A stretch of 64,000 bases of DNA, taken from the NCBI RefSeq assembly GCF_001262495.1, contig NZ_LGYE01000001.1, forward strand, positions 1,178,001-1,242,000, read 5' to 3'. The DNA comes from Microbacterium sp. GCS4 (GTDB taxonomy: Bacteria; Actinomycetota; Actinomycetes; Actinomycetales; Microbacteriaceae). This document shows, piece by piece, positions 24,056 through 59,962 of the stretch (positions within the stretch are counted from its first letter, which is position 1; each line of letters starts with the position of its first letter). Under the pieces are notes generated by a model. The model worked only from the letters and a program-made list of their open reading frames with translations, did not search any database and had not been told where the DNA came from. Both the position numbers and the translations under genes were made by a program.

Positions 24056-24135
24056 TCAGCCGAGACTACCGGCCCGGGGAGCGCGATACGCCGCGAATGA
24101 CGGCCCGCGGCGACGGGGGCGAGTACGGTGGGGCC

Positions 24136-24720
24136 ATGAATGGTCGACTCGCCGCCGCAGCAGCGGCCCTCCTGCTCACCGCCGTGCTCGCAGGATGCGG
24201 ATCGACCGGCGCGGATGCCGACAAGCCGTCCGCCTCACCCGAGCCCTCGGCGACCTCGACGCCGGAGGGCTCCCCCTCCCCCACGCCGACCCCGACGACT
24301 TCGCAGATCGCACTGCCCACCGACTGCCGCGCGATCCTCTCCGACGACGTGCTCACCCAGCTCGACGGCATCCCCCTCAACGACGCCGCGTTCGGCCCGT
24401 CAGGCGTAGGCGACGACGGCACGCTCACCTGCATCTGGGGCGACCCGCGCGCCGACACGACCAACCTCGTGACCACCATCTCCCACGAGGACCGCGGCCC
24501 GGCTCTCGACATGCTCAACGCCCTGGTCGCGAACGAGGGCTTCACGTGCTTCACCCCCGACGGCGGCACCCGCTGCGAGAAGACGTTCCAGAACCCGCAG
24601 TATCCCGTCACCGACGGTCGCACGCTCTTCTATCGGGATGACGTGCTCATCGACACGCGCTACTCGAACCTCGCCCCCACGGGCTACACCGCCAGCATCG
24701 TCGCGCACCTGTTCGGCTGA
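24136..24720 (+). CDS. Lipoprotein of unknown function
   Basis: A 194-residue lipoprotein with signal peptide and lipobox VLAGC (Cys21), a Pro-Ser-Thr-rich linker to about residue 55, and a domain with four Cys (TDCRAIL, LTCIWG, FTCFTPDGGTRCEK) likely in two disulphides. Such DUF3558-like lipoproteins are common in actinobacteria; the match is only suggestive. ATG 24136 lies 6 bases after TACGGT, indicating a leaderless message. It diverges from the PfkB kinase. Confidence 0.8.
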   Translation: MNGRLAAAAAALLLTAVLAGCGSTGADADKPSASPEPSATSTPEGSPSPTPTPTTSQIALPTDCRAILSDDVLTQLDGIPLNDAAFGPSGVGDDGTLTCIWGDPRADTTNLVTTISHEDRGPALDMLNALVANEGFTCFTPDGGTRCEKTFQNPQYPVTDGRTLFYRDDVLIDTRYSNLAPTGYTASIVAHLFG

Positions 24721-24724
24721 CGAC

Positions 24725-24797
24725 CGGGCGCACGCTCGCGCCCACCCGGGCACACGCTCGCGCCCACCCTGGCGCACGCTCGCGCCCACCCGGGCAC
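24725..24797. repeat. Tandem 22-bp repeat, three and a third copies
   Basis: Units at 24725, 24747 and 24769 share the core CACGCTCGCGCCCACC, followed by the start of a fourth copy (24791). They lie just after the lipoprotein stop. There are no spacers, so it is not a CRISPR array. Confidence 0.85.
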
Positions 24798-35427: not shown

Positions 35428-36432
35428 TCACTGCACCCGCACTCTCGGATCGATCAGGCTGTACGACACATCGACCGCCAGGTTGATGAGCGCGTACGCG
35501 ATCGCGATGAAGATGATGAACCCCTGGAGCACCGGGAAGTCCCGCGTGAAGATGGCCCTCGCGAGGAACGAGCCGATGCCGGGGAACGCGAACACGGTCT
35601 CGGTGAGCACCGCGCCGGAGATCAGCAGACCGGTCTGCAGACCGATCGTCGTGACGACCGGCAGCATCGCGTTGCGCAGGATGAACCTGTTGCGCAGCGT
35701 GGAGGCACCGACGCCCTTCGCCCTGCCCGTGCGCACGTAGTCCGCGTTCTGCACCTCGAGCACGCTGGCCCTGGTGATGCGCACGATGATCGCGAGCGGG
35801 ATGGTGCCGAGCGCGAGCGCCGGGAGGATCAGGTGCAGGATGGCATCCCACGAGGCGTCGAACTCCCCGGTGATGATGCCGTCCCAGACGTAGAACCCCG
35901 TGGGATGGGTCGCGTCTATCCTCGGATTCTGCCGTCCGTCCGAGGGCAGCCACCCGAGCTGCACCGCGAAGACGTACTTGAGGATGAACGCCAGGAAGAA
36001 CACCGGGATGGTGATGCCGATGAGGCTCAGCACCACGGAGGCGTGGTCGGTGAACTTGCCGTGACGTCGAGCAGCCCAGTATCCGAGAGGGATGCCGACG
36101 CCGACCGCGAAGATGAGAGCCATGACGCTCAGCTCCATCGTCGCCGGGAAGCGTCGGAAGAACTCCTCCACGACGGGACGATTCGTCTGGATCGAGGTTC
36201 CGAAGTCCCCTTGGAGGAGACGTCCGACCCAGACGAAGTACTGCTCGAGGATCGGACGGTCGAAACCGTACAGCTCGTTGATCCGGGCGACGGCCTCGGG
36301 GGTCGCCTTCTCACCGAGGAGGGCGACGGCCGGGCCGCCGGGAAGGGCCCTGACCCAGGCGAACAGCAGGATGCTGAGACCGACGAGGGTGGGAATGAGG
36401 AACAGCAGTCGCCTGCCGATGGTGCGCAGCAC
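35428..36432 (-). CDS. Oligopeptide ABC transporter permease (DppB type)
   Basis: A 334-residue permease of the DppB/OppB group: N-terminal helix, a large loop (GFDRPILEQYFVWVGRLLQG), five more helices and the ATPase-contact loop (RTGRAKGVGASTLRNRFILR). Start is GTG at 36432 with AGGAG 8 bases upstream. It is the second gene of the operon, separated from the binding-protein gene by an imperfect inverted pair of interspersed repeats. Confidence 0.92.
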   Translation of the reverse strand: MLRTIGRRLLFLIPTLVGLSILLFAWVRALPGGPAVALLGEKATPEAVARINELYGFDRPILEQYFVWVGRLLQGDFGTSIQTNRPVVEEFFRRFPATMELSVMALIFAVGVGIPLGYWAARRHGKFTDHASVVLSLIGITIPVFFLAFILKYVFAVQLGWLPSDGRQNPRIDATHPTGFYVWDGIITGEFDASWDAILHLILPALALGTIPLAIIVRITRASVLEVQNADYVRTGRAKGVGASTLRNRFILRNAMLPVVTTIGLQTGLLISGAVLTETVFAFPGIGSFLARAIFTRDFPVLQGFIIFIAIAYALINLAVDVSYSLIDPRVRVQ

Positions 36433-36459: not shown

Positions 36460-36550
36460 CCGGTCGTCGAGCGAGGAACCGAGTGACGAGACGAAACGCG
36501 TCCCCGCGGGGAGAGCGCGTTTCGTCTCGCTTCGCTCGCTCGACGACCGG
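36460..36550. repeat. Inverted pair of interspersed repeats between binding-protein and permease genes
   Basis: A 41-bp copy (36460-36500) and a 35-bp copy (36516-36550) lie head to head around the small hairpin CCCCGCGGGG. The arms pair except for one 6-base difference in the middle, giving a long stem in the mRNA right after the binding-protein stop. Such stems between genes can protect upstream mRNA and lower downstream expression. Confidence 0.85.
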
Positions 36551-36566: not shown

Positions 36567-38240
36567 TTACTTGGTGAGGACGATGTCCGTGAAGACTTCG
36601 TCGTTCACCGGGCTGGCCGGGTAGCTCTTCACGCGCGAGTCGAACGCGAGGGTCGGTGCCGGGTGCGCGAGCGGGACGCCGGGGATGAACTCCGCGACCA
36701 TCTCGTTGATGTCCTCGTACAGCGCCGTCTGGTCCTCGAGGCTCGGGACGCCACGCGCCTCCGTCAGCTTCTGGAACAGCTCGGGGTTGTCGAAGCCCCA
36801 CTCCGCGCTCTGCTGGCCGAAGAACACGCCGACGAAGTTGTCGGTGTCGTTGTAGTCACCGGTCCAGCCGAGCAGGTGGATGCCGTGATCCGGCGTACCC
36901 GTGATGCGGTCGAGGTACTCGCCCCACTCCTGCGACACCGGCGTCGTCTGCACGCCGACCTCGGACAGCTGCGAGGACAGCACGGTGAAGATCTGCTCGG
37001 GGTCCGGCATGTACGGACGCGAGACGTTGACCGGGTAGTTGAAGTCCAGCGCCAGCGGGTTGGCCTCGGTGTAGCCGGCCTCCGCGAGCAGCGCCTTGGC
37101 CTTCTCGGGGTCGTAGTCGTACGTCGTGACGTCGGGGTTGTAGCCGTTGACCGTGTCGGGCACGAACTCGATCGCCTTCTCCGTGCCCTCGGGCAGGACC
37201 TGGCTGATCAGGGCGTCCTTGTCGATCGCGTACGAGAGCGCCTCACGGACCTTGGGGTCCTGCAGCTCGGGGAGAGCCTGGTTGAACGCCAGGTAGAGAA
37301 CCGTGAACGGCGGACGCGAGACCATCGTGAAGCCGTCGTCCTCGAGCGCCTTGGTGTCGGCCGGGCCGACGAGGTCGTAGCCGTCGATCGAGCCGGACTC
37401 GAGCGCCTGGCGACGCGCCGTCGGGTCGTCGATCGTGCGGAAGATGATCTCGTCGATCTGTCCGGCCTCGCCCCAGTAGTCGCCGTAGGCCTTGAGCGTG
37501 ACCTGCTCGCCCGGCGCCCACTCCTCGAACTGGTAGGGGCCGGTGCCGACCGGGTGGCCCATCGCGTACTCCGAGAGCACGGGCGCCTCGGCGGTGCCGC
37601 TGACGTCGTCGGCGCCGAACTCGGCCATCGCCGAGGGGCTCTGCATGCCGAAGGCGGGCAGCGACAGGGAGGCGACGAAGCCGGCGAACGGCTTGTTCAG
37701 GTCGATCGTGACGGAGTAGTCGCCGTCCGGGGTGCACGACTTGTAGACCGCGTTCGCGGGGTCGGACGCGTAGCCCTTGAAGAGCTTGTTGTAGTAGTAG
37801 CCCAGAGCCTCGGATGCCGCGAGACCGGTCCAGTTGTACCAGCGGTCGAAGTTCGCGCACACGGCCTCGGCGTTGAACGGAGTGCCGTCGTGGAAGGTCA
37901 CGTCCTGCTTGAGCGTGAAGGTGTGGCTCATGCCGTCCTCGGACGACTCCCACTTCTCGGCGAGCAGCGGCGCGGGATCCGCCGTGCCGGGCTCGGTGCC
38001 GACCAGTCCCTCGAAGATCTGGCGGGAGACGCGGAAGGTCTCGCCGTCCTGAGCGAAGGCGGGGTCGAGGCTCGCAGGATCCGACGACGCCGCGAACACG
38101 AAGGTGCCGTCGACGTCTCCGGATGCTCCGCCGTCGTCGTCTCCGCGTTCGCTGGCGACACAGGCTGACAGGACCAGCGCGGCCAGCGCAGCTCCGGTGA
38201 CGACGGCGAGACCTCGCCGACGCGTGATCGAGTGGTGCAT
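36567..38240 (-). CDS. Oligopeptide ABC transporter substrate-binding lipoprotein
   Basis: A 557-residue SBP_bac_5-family binding protein that captures peptides (or nickel/heme-type ligands in relatives) outside the membrane. The signal peptide and lipobox VLSAC put the acylated Cys at 27. The family pattern LAEKWESSEDGMSHTFTLK, DVTFHDGTPFNAEAV and VGTGPYQFEEW is clear. GGAAGG precedes the ATG by about 9 bases, and a small GGGGTG-AAAG-CACCCC hairpin sits in the leader. First gene of the operon. Confidence 0.93.
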   Translation of the reverse strand: MHHSITRRRGLAVVTGAALAALVLSACVASERGDDDGGASGDVDGTFVFAASSDPASLDPAFAQDGETFRVSRQIFEGLVGTEPGTADPAPLLAEKWESSEDGMSHTFTLKQDVTFHDGTPFNAEAVCANFDRWYNWTGLAASEALGYYYNKLFKGYASDPANAVYKSCTPDGDYSVTIDLNKPFAGFVASLSLPAFGMQSPSAMAEFGADDVSGTAEAPVLSEYAMGHPVGTGPYQFEEWAPGEQVTLKAYGDYWGEAGQIDEIIFRTIDDPTARRQALESGSIDGYDLVGPADTKALEDDGFTMVSRPPFTVLYLAFNQALPELQDPKVREALSYAIDKDALISQVLPEGTEKAIEFVPDTVNGYNPDVTTYDYDPEKAKALLAEAGYTEANPLALDFNYPVNVSRPYMPDPEQIFTVLSSQLSEVGVQTTPVSQEWGEYLDRITGTPDHGIHLLGWTGDYNDTDNFVGVFFGQQSAEWGFDNPELFQKLTEARGVPSLEDQTALYEDINEMVAEFIPGVPLAHPAPTLAFDSRVKSYPASPVNDEVFTDIVLTK

Positions 38241-56802: not shown

Positions 56803-57957
56803 TCAGCGCAGGTCGGCCACGGCGCGACGGATCGCCTCCCGGTCGGGCTTGCCCGAGGCGAGGACGTCGAGCTCGTCGACGAGCACCATGCGGGCGGGGC
56901 GCGCATGCTTGCCGAGCTCCTCGGCCACGGCCTCGCGGGCCTGCACGAGCTGATCCGACTCGCTGCGACGCAGGGCCTCGCCGCGCGCGGCGACGATCAC
57001 CGAGGCCTCACCCCAGCGCGCATCGTCGACGCCCACCACGACGGCACCGCTGAGACCGGGGATGCGGCGCACGATCCGCTCGACCCGGTCGAGCGAGACG
57101 TTGATGCCGCCTGACACGATCACGTTGTCGGCGCGGCCGTGCACGCGCACCACCCCGTCGTCGACGAGGCCGAGGTCGCCCGTGCGGTACCAGCGGATGC
57201 CGTGCTCGTCGTGCGTGAAGTTCCGCGCCGTGAGGTCGCCGTCGCCGAGGTAGCCGTCCGCGAGCATGGGACCGGCGATGCGCAGCTCGCCGTCCACCGC
57301 CCGCACCGCCACGGATTCCAACGGCACGCCGTCGTACACGCATCCACCGCTCGTCTCGGTCGATCCGTAGGTGCGCACGAGGCGCACGCCGAGGTCGGCC
57401 GCTCGTTCGCGCAGTGGCTCCGGCAGCGCTTGACCGCCCACCAGGATCGCCCGGTAGGCGCGCAGCGCCGCGCGGATGGGGGCGTCGGCTGCCGCATCGA
57501 GCAGCGTCGACAGCTGCGCCGGCACGAGGGACGTGTAGAGCTCGGGGATGCCGTCGCCCGACACCGGCCGCAGCATCGACAGCGTCGCCTCGGCGAAGGT
57601 CTGCGGTGAGAACCTGCCATCGAGCGCGACCGGCTCCGTGCCGGCGAGGATCGAGCGAACCACGACCTGCAGCCCCGCGACATAGCCGCCGGGAAGCGCG
57701 AGCAGCCAGCGCCCGGACCCGATGCGCTGCGCCGTGGCCTCGGCGCTCGCGCGCAGCGCCTCCCCGCTCAGGGCGACACGTTTGGGGACCCCGCTGGACC
57801 CCGAGGTCGCGATCACCACGGCCGTGCCGCGCGGCACCCAATCCGGCGCGTCGCCGATCATGCCGAAGCCCAGGGCCTGTCCGCCGTCGAGGGCCCGGGC
57901 GAGCGCATCCCGCAGCCGTGCCGGATCCTCGGCATCCATCGAGATCAGTCCGACCAT
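56803..57957 (-). CDS. menE: o-Succinylbenzoate-CoA ligase (AMP-forming)
   Basis: A 384-residue acyl-CoA synthetase with the AMP-binding loop ATSGSSGVPKR (50-60), YGSTETSGG, the WYRTGDLG hinge and C-terminal GKPDREAIRR with the catalytic Lys. It is shorter than typical MenE (about 450-500 residues), lacking the first subdomain, as often seen in Microbacteriaceae. It lies 34 bases after menB, so it is read in the same menaquinone cluster. Confidence 0.88.
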   Translation of the reverse strand: MVGLISMDAEDPARLRDALARALDGGQALGFGMIGDAPDWVPRGTAVVIATSGSSGVPKRVALSGEALRASAEATAQRIGSGRWLLALPGGYVAGLQVVVRSILAGTEPVALDGRFSPQTFAEATLSMLRPVSGDGIPELYTSLVPAQLSTLLDAAADAPIRAALRAYRAILVGGQALPEPLRERAADLGVRLVRTYGSTETSGGCVYDGVPLESVAVRAVDGELRIAGPMLADGYLGDGDLTARNFTHDEHGIRWYRTGDLGLVDDGVVRVHGRADNVIVSGGINVSLDRVERIVRRIPGLSGAVVVGVDDARWGEASVIVAARGEALRRSESDQLVQAREAVAEELGKHARPARMVLVDELDVLASGKPDREAIRRAVADLR

Positions 57958-57991
57958 GTCCGTCCCGTCCTCTGCCCGATCCCGCGGGACC

Positions 57992-58924
57992 TCAGTAGTG
58001 CCAGGGGAACGACGACCAGTCGGGGTCGCGCTTCTCGAGGAAGGAGTCGCGGCCCTCCACGGCCTCGTCCGTGCCGTAGGCGAGGCGTGTCGCCTCCCCC
58101 GCGAACACCTGCTGGCCGACGAGCCCGTCGTCGACCGCGTTGAACGCGAACTTCAGCATGCGGATCGCCGTCGGCGACTTCGTGAGCACGGTCCGCGCCA
58201 TCGCCAGCGCCTCGCGCTCGAGCTCGGCATGCGGCACGACGCGGTTCACGGCTCCGGCCTCATACGCGCGCTGCGCCGAGTACTCCTCCGCGAGGAAGAA
58301 CACCTCCCGCGCGAACTTCTGCCCGGTCTGCCGCGCCATGTACGCCGAACCGTAGCCCGCGTCGAAGCTGCCGACGTCGGCATCCGTCTGCTTGAACCGC
58401 GCCTCCTCCGACGAGGCGATCGTGAGGTCGCACACCACGTGCAGCGAGTGCCCTCCCCCTGCTGCCCAGCCCGGGACGACCGCGATCACGACCTTGGGCA
58501 TGAAGCGGATGAGTCGCTGCACCTCGAGGATGTGGAGGCGTCCGGCGCGTGCGCGCGTTTCGTCTCGCTCCGCTCGCTCAACGACCGAATCCTCGGCCTC
58601 GGAGTACTTGTACCCGTCGCGTCCGCGGATGCGCTGGTCGCCGCCGGAGCAGAACGCCCAGCCGCCGTCCTTGGGACTCGGCCCGTTGCCGGTGAGCAGC
58701 ACGGCCCCGATGCGCGGGTCCTGGCGGGCGATGTCCAGTGCCCGATACAGCTCGTCGACCGTGTGCGGGCGGAACGCGTTGCGCACCTCGGGTCGGTCGA
58801 ACGCGATGCGCGCGACACCGCCGTCGTGCGTGACGTGCGCGGTGATGTCGGTGTAGTCCTCGGCGCCGGGCGCGAGAGTCCACTCGTCGGGGTCGAACAG
58901 GTCGGAGACGAATGCGCTGGTCAC
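57992..58924 (-). CDS. menB: 1,4-Dihydroxy-2-naphthoyl-CoA synthase
   Basis: A 310-residue crotonase-family enzyme that closes the second ring of menaquinone. FCSGGDQRIRG (91-101), GWAAGGGHSLHVVCDL and the DVGSFDAGYGSAYMAR segment are family hallmarks. Residues 113-124 (SVVERAERDETR) are extra: they are encoded by a 35-bp interspersed repeat (58554-58588) inserted in frame just before RLHILEV. The start is GTG 58924, 7 bases after TAGGCT (leaderless). First of the leftward pair with menE. Confidence 0.95.
   Translation of the reverse strand: MTSAFVSDLFDPDEWTLAPGAEDYTDITAHVTHDGGVARIAFDRPEVRNAFRPHTVDELYRALDIARQDPRIGAVLLTGNGPSPKDGGWAFCSGGDQRIRGRDGYKYSEAEDSVVERAERDETRARAGRLHILEVQRLIRFMPKVVIAVVPGWAAGGGHSLHVVCDLTIASSEEARFKQTDADVGSFDAGYGSAYMARQTGQKFAREVFFLAEEYSAQRAYEAGAVNRVVPHAELEREALAMARTVLTKSPTAIRMLKFAFNAVDDGLVGQQVFAGEATRLAYGTDEAVEGRDSFLEKRDPDWSSFPWHY
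58554..58588. repeat. Interspersed repeat inserted in frame in menB (35-bp form)
   Basis: This copy matches the 35-bp copy at 36516-36550 at 32 of 35 bases. It keeps the reading frame and adds about 12 residues to MenB. Confidence 0.85.
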
Positions 58925-58969
58925 GGCATCCAGCCTATTCCTGTCGAGATCGCCGACGGGATGCGCGGA

Positions 58970-59962
58970 TCAACCACGACGGGCCCGCGCCGTCTTGATC
59001 CAGCCGTCCACGATGTCCCACCCGACGCCCAGCGCGATGCCGAAGCCGAGGAGCACGGCGAGGATCCGGAAGATCCCTCCCTCATCCGCGGCCTTCGCGT
59101 CGCCGGCGGCGAAGCCCTCGCCGCCCGCCGCGACGATGTGCGAGAGGAACTCGGGGTTCACGAGCTCGCCGCGCAGCAGCAGGATCAGGCTCCATGCGAG
59201 GAAGGCGACCGCCAGAACCGTGTTGACGACGGCGAGCCCGGTGCTCCAGCCGCGTCTGCGGTACAGGACGACGGCGAAGACGGCCTCGGCGACGATGAGC
59301 AACCCCAGCGTCGCGACGCCCCAGGGCCACAGCTGCGGGTTGAGGATCGGAAGTGCGTCACCCTCGACCTGCACGAATCCGCGGAACCGATCCCACAGCA
59401 GCGCGCCGACGGCGATGCCCAGGAAGACGAGCGACGCGATCAGCTCGGATCGCCCCACCCCCTTCTCGCGCGCCTCGGGAAGCTGATCCACGTCCCACTT
59501 CACACCGGTGTCGGCACCGGCGCGCTCGAGGATCACGAAGACGAGCGTGGTCCAGAAGCACAGGTGCAGGATCGTGCCACCCGTCGCCACCACGGCGGTC
59601 GAGATGATCTCGCCCACGGGTGCAGCAGCGATCGTCTGCCCGAGGGCGACCGCGGCGAGCACGCAGACCGGCACGATCATCAGCAGCAGCTTCAGCAGCC
59701 GCCACCAGGTGAGGTAGTAGCGCGGCCCGATCAGGTACAGCGGCCGGTCTGCGTACCCTGCGGCGAGCGCACCGGGATCGCCGAGCTCGGTGAGCACCGC
59801 ACGCTCGGCGGCATCCGGGCTCTCGCCCTGCTCGAGTCGGGCTTCGACAGCATCCGCGATGGATGCTTCGAGCTCGGCGCGCACGTCGTCCTGCGCCTCC
59901 GGGCGCAGGCTGCGGACGGTCGCGTCGATGTAGCGCTCGGTGAGGGTTGCGGTGCTGGGCAT
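58970..59962 (-). CDS. Membrane protein with permease-prefix domain, PadR-linked
   Basis: A 330-residue membrane protein. The first 80 residues (TERYIDATVRSLRPEAQDDV and ELGDPGALAAGYADRP) form the soluble permease-prefix helix bundle common next to PadR regulators; six or seven helices follow. GAGGAG precedes the ATG at 59962. It lies one base after the PadR stop, so it is co-expressed with, and probably controlled by, that regulator. Function unknown. Confidence 0.82.
   Translation of the reverse strand: MPSTATLTERYIDATVRSLRPEAQDDVRAELEASIADAVEARLEQGESPDAAERAVLTELGDPGALAAGYADRPLYLIGPRYYLTWWRLLKLLLMIVPVCVLAAVALGQTIAAAPVGEIISTAVVATGGTILHLCFWTTLVFVILERAGADTGVKWDVDQLPEAREKGVGRSELIASLVFLGIAVGALLWDRFRGFVQVEGDALPILNPQLWPWGVATLGLLIVAEAVFAVVLYRRRGWSTGLAVVNTVLAVAFLAWSLILLLRGELVNPEFLSHIVAAGGEGFAAGDAKAADEGGIFRILAVLLGFGIALGVGWDIVDGWIKTARARRG

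Follow-up and report, generated by a model that had tools for sequence, protein, structure and literature searches.

The window analysed here--that is, the whole 64,000-nucleotide stretch of the Microbacterium sp. GCS4 genome (termed here G000, with other genomes labelled likewise)--contains on its minus strand the menB gene, which codes for 1,4-dihydroxy-2-naphthoyl-CoA synthase (Table 1). The frame is intact and the product exceeds curated equivalog cut-offs, scoring 544.9 bits against NCBIfam model NF006186 (cut-off 378) and 399.8 bits against TIGR01929 (cut-off 342.7); over the best segment it is 92-93 per cent identical to the MenB of named Microbacterium relatives.

Within a variable loop of this enzyme, the codons for SVVERAERDETR are at the same time a copy of a short interspersed repeat (termed here family A), whose core, GTTTCGTCTCGCTNCGCTCGCTCAACGACC in plus-strand orientation, is matched perfectly and runs opposite to menB. 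A sequence-only reading had proposed that an interspersed repeat codes for this part of MenB, directly ahead of the conserved RLHILEV segment. Both points are confirmed: the core is exact and, when searched for genome-wide with up to 3 mismatches, yields 84 copies (44 forward and 40 reverse), as against 0 for a reversed control. The assignment of the repeat to these codons stands; its start, previously put at 58554, does not, and is corrected in Table 1. The longest exact match between the loop and the repeat consensus is 36 nt, and the copy is single, in that it has no inverted partner within 110 nt. Relative to the most common loop of the genus the net gain is 7 codons (32 residues against 25), which is less than a repeat unit; thus the event was not a clean insertion. 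An Rfam search over window positions 57900-59400 gave one weak snoRNA match, below the gathering score and outside the repeat, which was taken as chance.

Table 1. Features of the window discussed in the text
Feature	Position	Strand	Basis or context
menB, 1,4-dihydroxy-2-naphthoyl-CoA synthase, 310 aa, frame intact	57992..58924	-	ORF list; NCBIfam NF006186 and TIGR01929 above cut-off
Codons of the variable loop, residues 97-128 (QRIRG...RAG)	58541..58636	-	read between CSGGD and RLH
In-frame repeat copy coding SVVERAERDETR, residues 113-124	58553..58588	-	menB codons
Family A core, 30 nt, 0 mismatches, opposite to menB	58557..58586	+	genome and window searches
Second copy of family A, 1 mismatch	36519..36548	+	between called ORFs 35428-36432 and 36567-38240, both on the minus strand
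Decayed inverted partner arm (36-nt form) of the 36519 copy	36462..36497	-	locus L201, score 37, gap 21 nt

According to the available part of PMC3637252, residues 88-106 of E. coli MenB constitute a so-called A-loop, which is disordered without ligand and which folds when a product analogue binds. Mapped through the QxxRG and tyrosine motifs, the repeat insert would lie within this A-loop, with the conserved tyrosines on one side and the LHILEV patch on the other; judged by these motifs, it would occupy the same induced-fit loop, folding over the active site upon ligand binding, as that described in PMC3637252, but here the loop has been lengthened by a repeat. In an AlphaFold2 model of the protein (mean pLDDT 66.9), residues 90-129 score under 50; this agrees with a mobile loop, though weakly, given that the underlying alignment holds only 35 sequences. 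In the solved MenB chain 1q51, which we take to be that of M. tuberculosis, the loop is six residues shorter and lacks the insert.

Anatomy and distribution of the repeats

Searching the window for the family A core with up to 3 mismatches returns 2 copies, as against 0 in 100 dinucleotide shuffles; the second copy and its decayed partner arm are listed in Table 1. The window also contains two tandem repeats: a 17-bp repeat of 3.6 copies (1622-1683), which directly follows ORF 1135-1620 (presumably MarR-like) and overlaps the 3' end of ORF 1670-2869 (presumably DinB-like), and a 22-bp repeat of 3.3 copies (24724-24795) just past the stop codon of ORF 24097-24720.

For a census of gene context, genes around the copies were called with our own codon-usage caller, and 85 copies, including one at 4 mismatches, were classified. 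Sixty-seven are intergenic, 2 lie over a stop codon and 16 fall inside called ORFs, one of which is a 36-residue ORF that was taken as spurious and left out. Genic copies are strongly under-represented, since the coding fraction of the window according to the same caller is 0.91. The neighbours of the intergenic copies are convergent in 35 cases, point in the same direction in 29 and are divergent in 3.

Further coding copies, for which the sequence-only reading had proposed a search in all frames, do exist: in this genome 15 copies are in frame within 11 genes, and four reading frames are used. (One frame holds a TGA and necessarily goes unused; the remaining one was not seen in this genome.) Single copies occur in MenB, a DUF3516 helicase, HrpA, the tail of an ABC ATPase, KdpB, IleRS and a DUF993 protein; multiple copies occur in the tail of ResB (3, in tandem), the tail of a GntR/FCD regulator (2) and CydD (2, inverted); and the remaining gene, at locus L068, is without a match at the thresholds used. 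In the ResB gene (L051:1405-3030) the three copies form a 102-bp tandem array, which encodes a Ser/Gly/Glu-rich C-terminal tail. In KdpB (gene at L187:698-2914), residues 409-491 (about 83 residues) stand in place of a single residue in the solved chain 5mrw, which we take to be from E. coli; this extra stretch contains three clear family A arms and, by eye, a decayed fourth.

An inverted partner lies within 110 nt of 42 of the 85 copies: 37 of the 67 between genes, 4 of the 15 within genes and 1 of the 2 at stop codons. In most pairs this partner has the same sequence lengthened by six bases, so that an arm of 30 nt faces one of 36 nt. For such an arm pair the computed fold has -62.6 kcal/mol (z -7.5). 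A unit on its own is no more stable than shuffled sequences (z 0.99 and -0.29), nor is the menB copy (z 0.82), and the notion of the unit itself as a palindrome is ruled out by the folding of the single unit. Read from the sequence, family A has five of its six frames open with any of three of the four possible bases at the variable position, and the peptides encoded by its inserts are hydrophilic (VVERAERDET, RSLSERSETKR, VSSRSARSTT and RFVSLRSLND).

Allowing up to 2 mismatches, family A is present in 66 of the 119 genus genomes. When 150 Microbacteriaceae genomes were drawn (this one and one other of the genus among them) and searched with up to 1 mismatch, it was found in 4, two of which belong to other genera with one copy each; because matches in other genera are so few in this draw, family A looks nearly confined to the genus. 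A second, unrelated repeat (termed here family B), with core CCCTTCGACAAGCTCAGGGACC, was not found in G000 with up to 2 mismatches.

Reuse of protein loops across the genus

The MenB loop, from CSGGD to RLHILEV, could be read in 116 of the 119 genus genomes, the other three being without a match at the threshold used. Its length is 25 residues in 83 of the 116 and 24 in 9, and ranges from 19 to 75 among the MenB genes read. In six of the 116 loops there is a whole or partial repeat. Family A occurs in G000, in G022 (22 nt exact) and, decayed, in G113 (VVERAEGES); family B occurs in G045 (15 nt exact), in G005 (decayed) and in G019, where 23 nt are exact and are followed by a tandem expansion that lengthens the loop to 75 residues. 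An intact family A copy occurs in the G000 gene only: the residues in question are not carried by every MenB independently of the repeat, for the 115 other genus genes that were read are without an intact copy and chain 1q51 is without the insert. In the remaining 110 genes the longest exact match to either consensus is at most 10 nt. Codon shuffling, which was run on the 14 best-scoring loops only, set these six apart as the top six, with the observed score of each, including that of G000, reached in 0 of 200 shuffles; the best of the other eight (G082, family B, 2 of 200) is a near miss and was not counted.

In the G019 loop (L039), about six SGTGEAS-like repeats come after a single family B unit and seem to have arisen from it by tandem growth. 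Outside the genus, the MenB proteins of Agromyces, Leucobacter and Salinibacterium (L102, L103, L120, L128 and L130) have loops of 46-51 residues that match neither family; these may have other repeats inside. The MenB at L083 was flagged for family B at 5 mismatches and was left out of the counts.

In all six genomes the MenB insert belongs to whichever family has more copies there: family A and B copies number 83 and 0 in G000, 27 and 2 in G022, and 7 and 0 in G113, where the insert is family A, and 24 and 109 in G005, 4 and 47 in G045, and 0 and 93 in G019, where it is family B. By label permutation, insert type is associated with copy number at p = 4e-4, and the 25 genomes in which neither family was found with up to 2 mismatches have no MenB insert. 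G014 has 45 copies of family A and a MenB without an insert.

How often repeats entered this loop was judged from insert position and from a tree of MenB built, by a quick method, with the loop removed. The tree calls for three changes for each family, of which the starred branches (only 14 of 113) force two each; three changes can also be read as one gain and two losses. The G000 and G113 proteins have the junction residues EDS-VVERAE in common, so their inserts may stem from one event, and the repeat pieces in G022, G005, G045 and G019 lie at different points of the loop. On this basis we judge that there were at least five entries.

A similar pattern was found in three further proteins (IleRS, HrpA and CydD), for each of which 59 genomes were searched and the best 20 loci read, a loop being counted if it scored 28 or more and no more than one shuffle reached that score. 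Among these best loci, 4 of 20 IleRS loops contain a repeat (family A in G000 and G022; family B in G045 and G051), as do 4 of 20 HrpA loops (family A in G000, G051 and G056; family B in G005) and 6 of the 19 CydD linkers that could be read (family A in G000, G005, G022, G004 and G067; family B in G043), one CydD locus not being matched by the reading pattern. Two of these calls are marginal: that in G022 CydD was reached by 1 of 300 shuffles, and that in G056 HrpA by 1 of 200, with the absence of family A (up to 2 mismatches) from the G056 genome counting against it. In G043 HrpA a family A score of 26 (0 of 200 shuffles) is a near miss and was not counted. Because CydD of G005 and G043 and HrpA of G051 contain the rarer family, abundance does not predict every insertion site. 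The loops of MenB, IleRS, HrpA and CydD are reused by family A or by the unrelated family B across species. Since related species have the same or the other repeat in the same loops, it seems that protein loops have repeatedly gained variation from repeat DNA.

How the copies may have arisen

That MenB contains a copy of the repeat is an observation. As to its origin, the reading we favour, with a probability of roughly 0.8, is that the 36 nt derive from family A, an interspersed repeat of the genus, a copy of which was placed in frame among the codons of an active-site loop, at the cost of a few loop codons. More generally, units or fragments of an expanding repeat would be copied to many genomic sites, whether by transposition or by template switching during repair, and selection would remove those that break genes, leaving intergenic copies near gene ends together with in-frame copies. 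Coding copies would last only if they leave an open frame and extra residues are tolerated at the site, as in loops, linkers and C-terminal tails, and would afterwards be eroded by point mutations or lengthen as tandem arrays. Family A should be easily tolerated because, with most bases at its variable position, five of its six frames are open and because the resulting peptides are hydrophilic.

A RAYT-type transposase is unlikely to be the general cause of such copying. A profile search for Y1_Tnp (PF01797) found none in G000 and one among the 119 genus genomes, as against matches in 5 of 14 named genomes for the control; because of these searches, and within the sensitivity of the model, a RAYT as general mobiliser was rejected, PF01797 not being found in G000 or in 118 of the 119. 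The sole match (G056:C15:20980-21342, locus L281) is in a genome with 0 family A copies and 1 family B copy at up to 2 mismatches.

A related proposal, which departs from the favoured reading in the manner of copying only, is that the coding pieces were copied from intergenic copies by template switching or gene conversion during repair, with local codons lost in the process. It would account for the fragments of 22 nt in G022 MenB and 15 nt in G045 MenB (although decay could also shorten a match), for net gains below unit length in both MenB and IleRS of G000, for the absence of a partner arm within 110 nt from 11 of 15 genic as against 30 of 67 intergenic copies, and for the near absence of Y1_Tnp just described. 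The arm pairs in CydD (two copies), KdpB and the L068 gene are, however, what a mobile unit would leave, and IleRS of G022 exceeds its G005 counterpart by 33 nt, which is near one unit. With the fragments and the gains below unit length on its side, template switching stands at somewhat less than even odds; the KdpB and CydD pairs speak for a mobile unit. It is a good deal less probable that the copies are kept as a working DNA or RNA motif, such as a bidirectional terminator or protein binding site, of which the coding copies would be functional instances. The 35 of 67 intergenic copies between convergent genes, with 3 between divergent ones, and the strong fold of the arm pair would suit a motif of this kind; the MenB copy, however, has neither a nearby partner arm nor a fold better than that of shuffled sequences, the decayed copies in G113 and G005 keep the frame and not the motif, and two unrelated motifs occupy the same loops.

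Two other explanations carry very little weight. Repeats can mislead assembly, so that an artefact of assembly or sequencing might be suspected, but menB has an unbroken frame, and repeats occupy the same loops in independently assembled genomes of other species; an artefact is accordingly very improbable. More improbable still is a chance likeness of a fast-changing loop: the MenB loop does vary greatly in length among the genes read, but chance would have to produce a 36-nt exact match, scores unmatched by 200 codon shuffles in each of six loops, and the association with genome copy number.

Relation to known repeats and significance

The sequence-only reading had likened the MenB insert to the palindromic elements of Rickettsia, which, according to the available part of PMC10969869 (citing Ogata et al. 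2000, 2002), are dispersed, are found in frame in unrelated metabolic genes to which they add peptide, are about 150 bp long and lie nearly half in ORFs. As to outcome the comparison holds: family A likewise occurs in frame in several unrelated, conserved genes. In detail it does not: the family A core is shorter (30-36 nt) and not self-palindromic, no RAYT was found in this genome, 67 of 85 copies are intergenic and the host is an actinobacterium.

Closer in size are the GTAG and CGTC REPs, which in the available text of PMC3733652 are 20-40 bp long, mostly intergenic next to convergent or same-direction genes, and include dimers. Family A resembles them in size, copy number, mainly intergenic position and convergent or same-direction neighbours, but not in having a stem-loop within the unit, which folding reveals in neither family (the family B unit has a 4-bp stem, with z between -0.04 and 0.77). 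The same text describes such REPs inside genes at times, including those for tRNA synthetases and helicases, reports different REPs at about the same site of Xanthomonas recB, suggests that REP inserts are placed in flexible linkers and loops, and argues that in-gene inserts may be neutral; nothing in the present data contradicts that last view. Nowhere does the main text of PMC3733652 use the words 'actinobacteria', 'actinomycet' or 'Microbacterium'. REPINs, as characterised in the available part of PMC3116915, consist of two inverted units close together, an arrangement found here in 42 of 85 family A copies; unlike REPINs with a RAYT, the pairs seen here have unequal arms and no such enzyme beyond the one genus match. 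Tandem coding repeats in other proteins, as described in the available part of PMC2996958, were set aside. A literature search by the family A and B sequence strings, and by Microbacterium together with REP, found neither repeat reported.

In-frame repeat insertion itself is thus already known from Rickettsia and from REP-rich bacteria, as the available parts of PMC10969869 and PMC3733652 attest. What seems new is that the host is an actinobacterium, that the unit is non-palindromic and its arms unequal, that no RAYT was found, and that two families reuse the same loops. A more speculative and rather doubtful extension is that certain flexible loops and linkers of housekeeping proteins--the MenB A-loop, those of IleRS, HrpA and CydD, and perhaps that of KdpB--are standing landing places for whichever repeat happens to expand, and that the repeats persist in part through having been selected to read as harmless hydrophilic peptides in most frames, with arm lengths that keep the frame. 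If this were true, loop evolution in essential enzymes would be driven by repeat invasions and not by point changes and slippage. Two unlinked families recur in the same loops, among them a loop of a tRNA synthetase and, in a menaquinone enzyme, what looks like the induced-fit loop, and a genus with genomes from more than 100 species offers replicated natural experiments on the tolerance of loops, the rate at which inserts decay and the copying of repeats without a RAYT.
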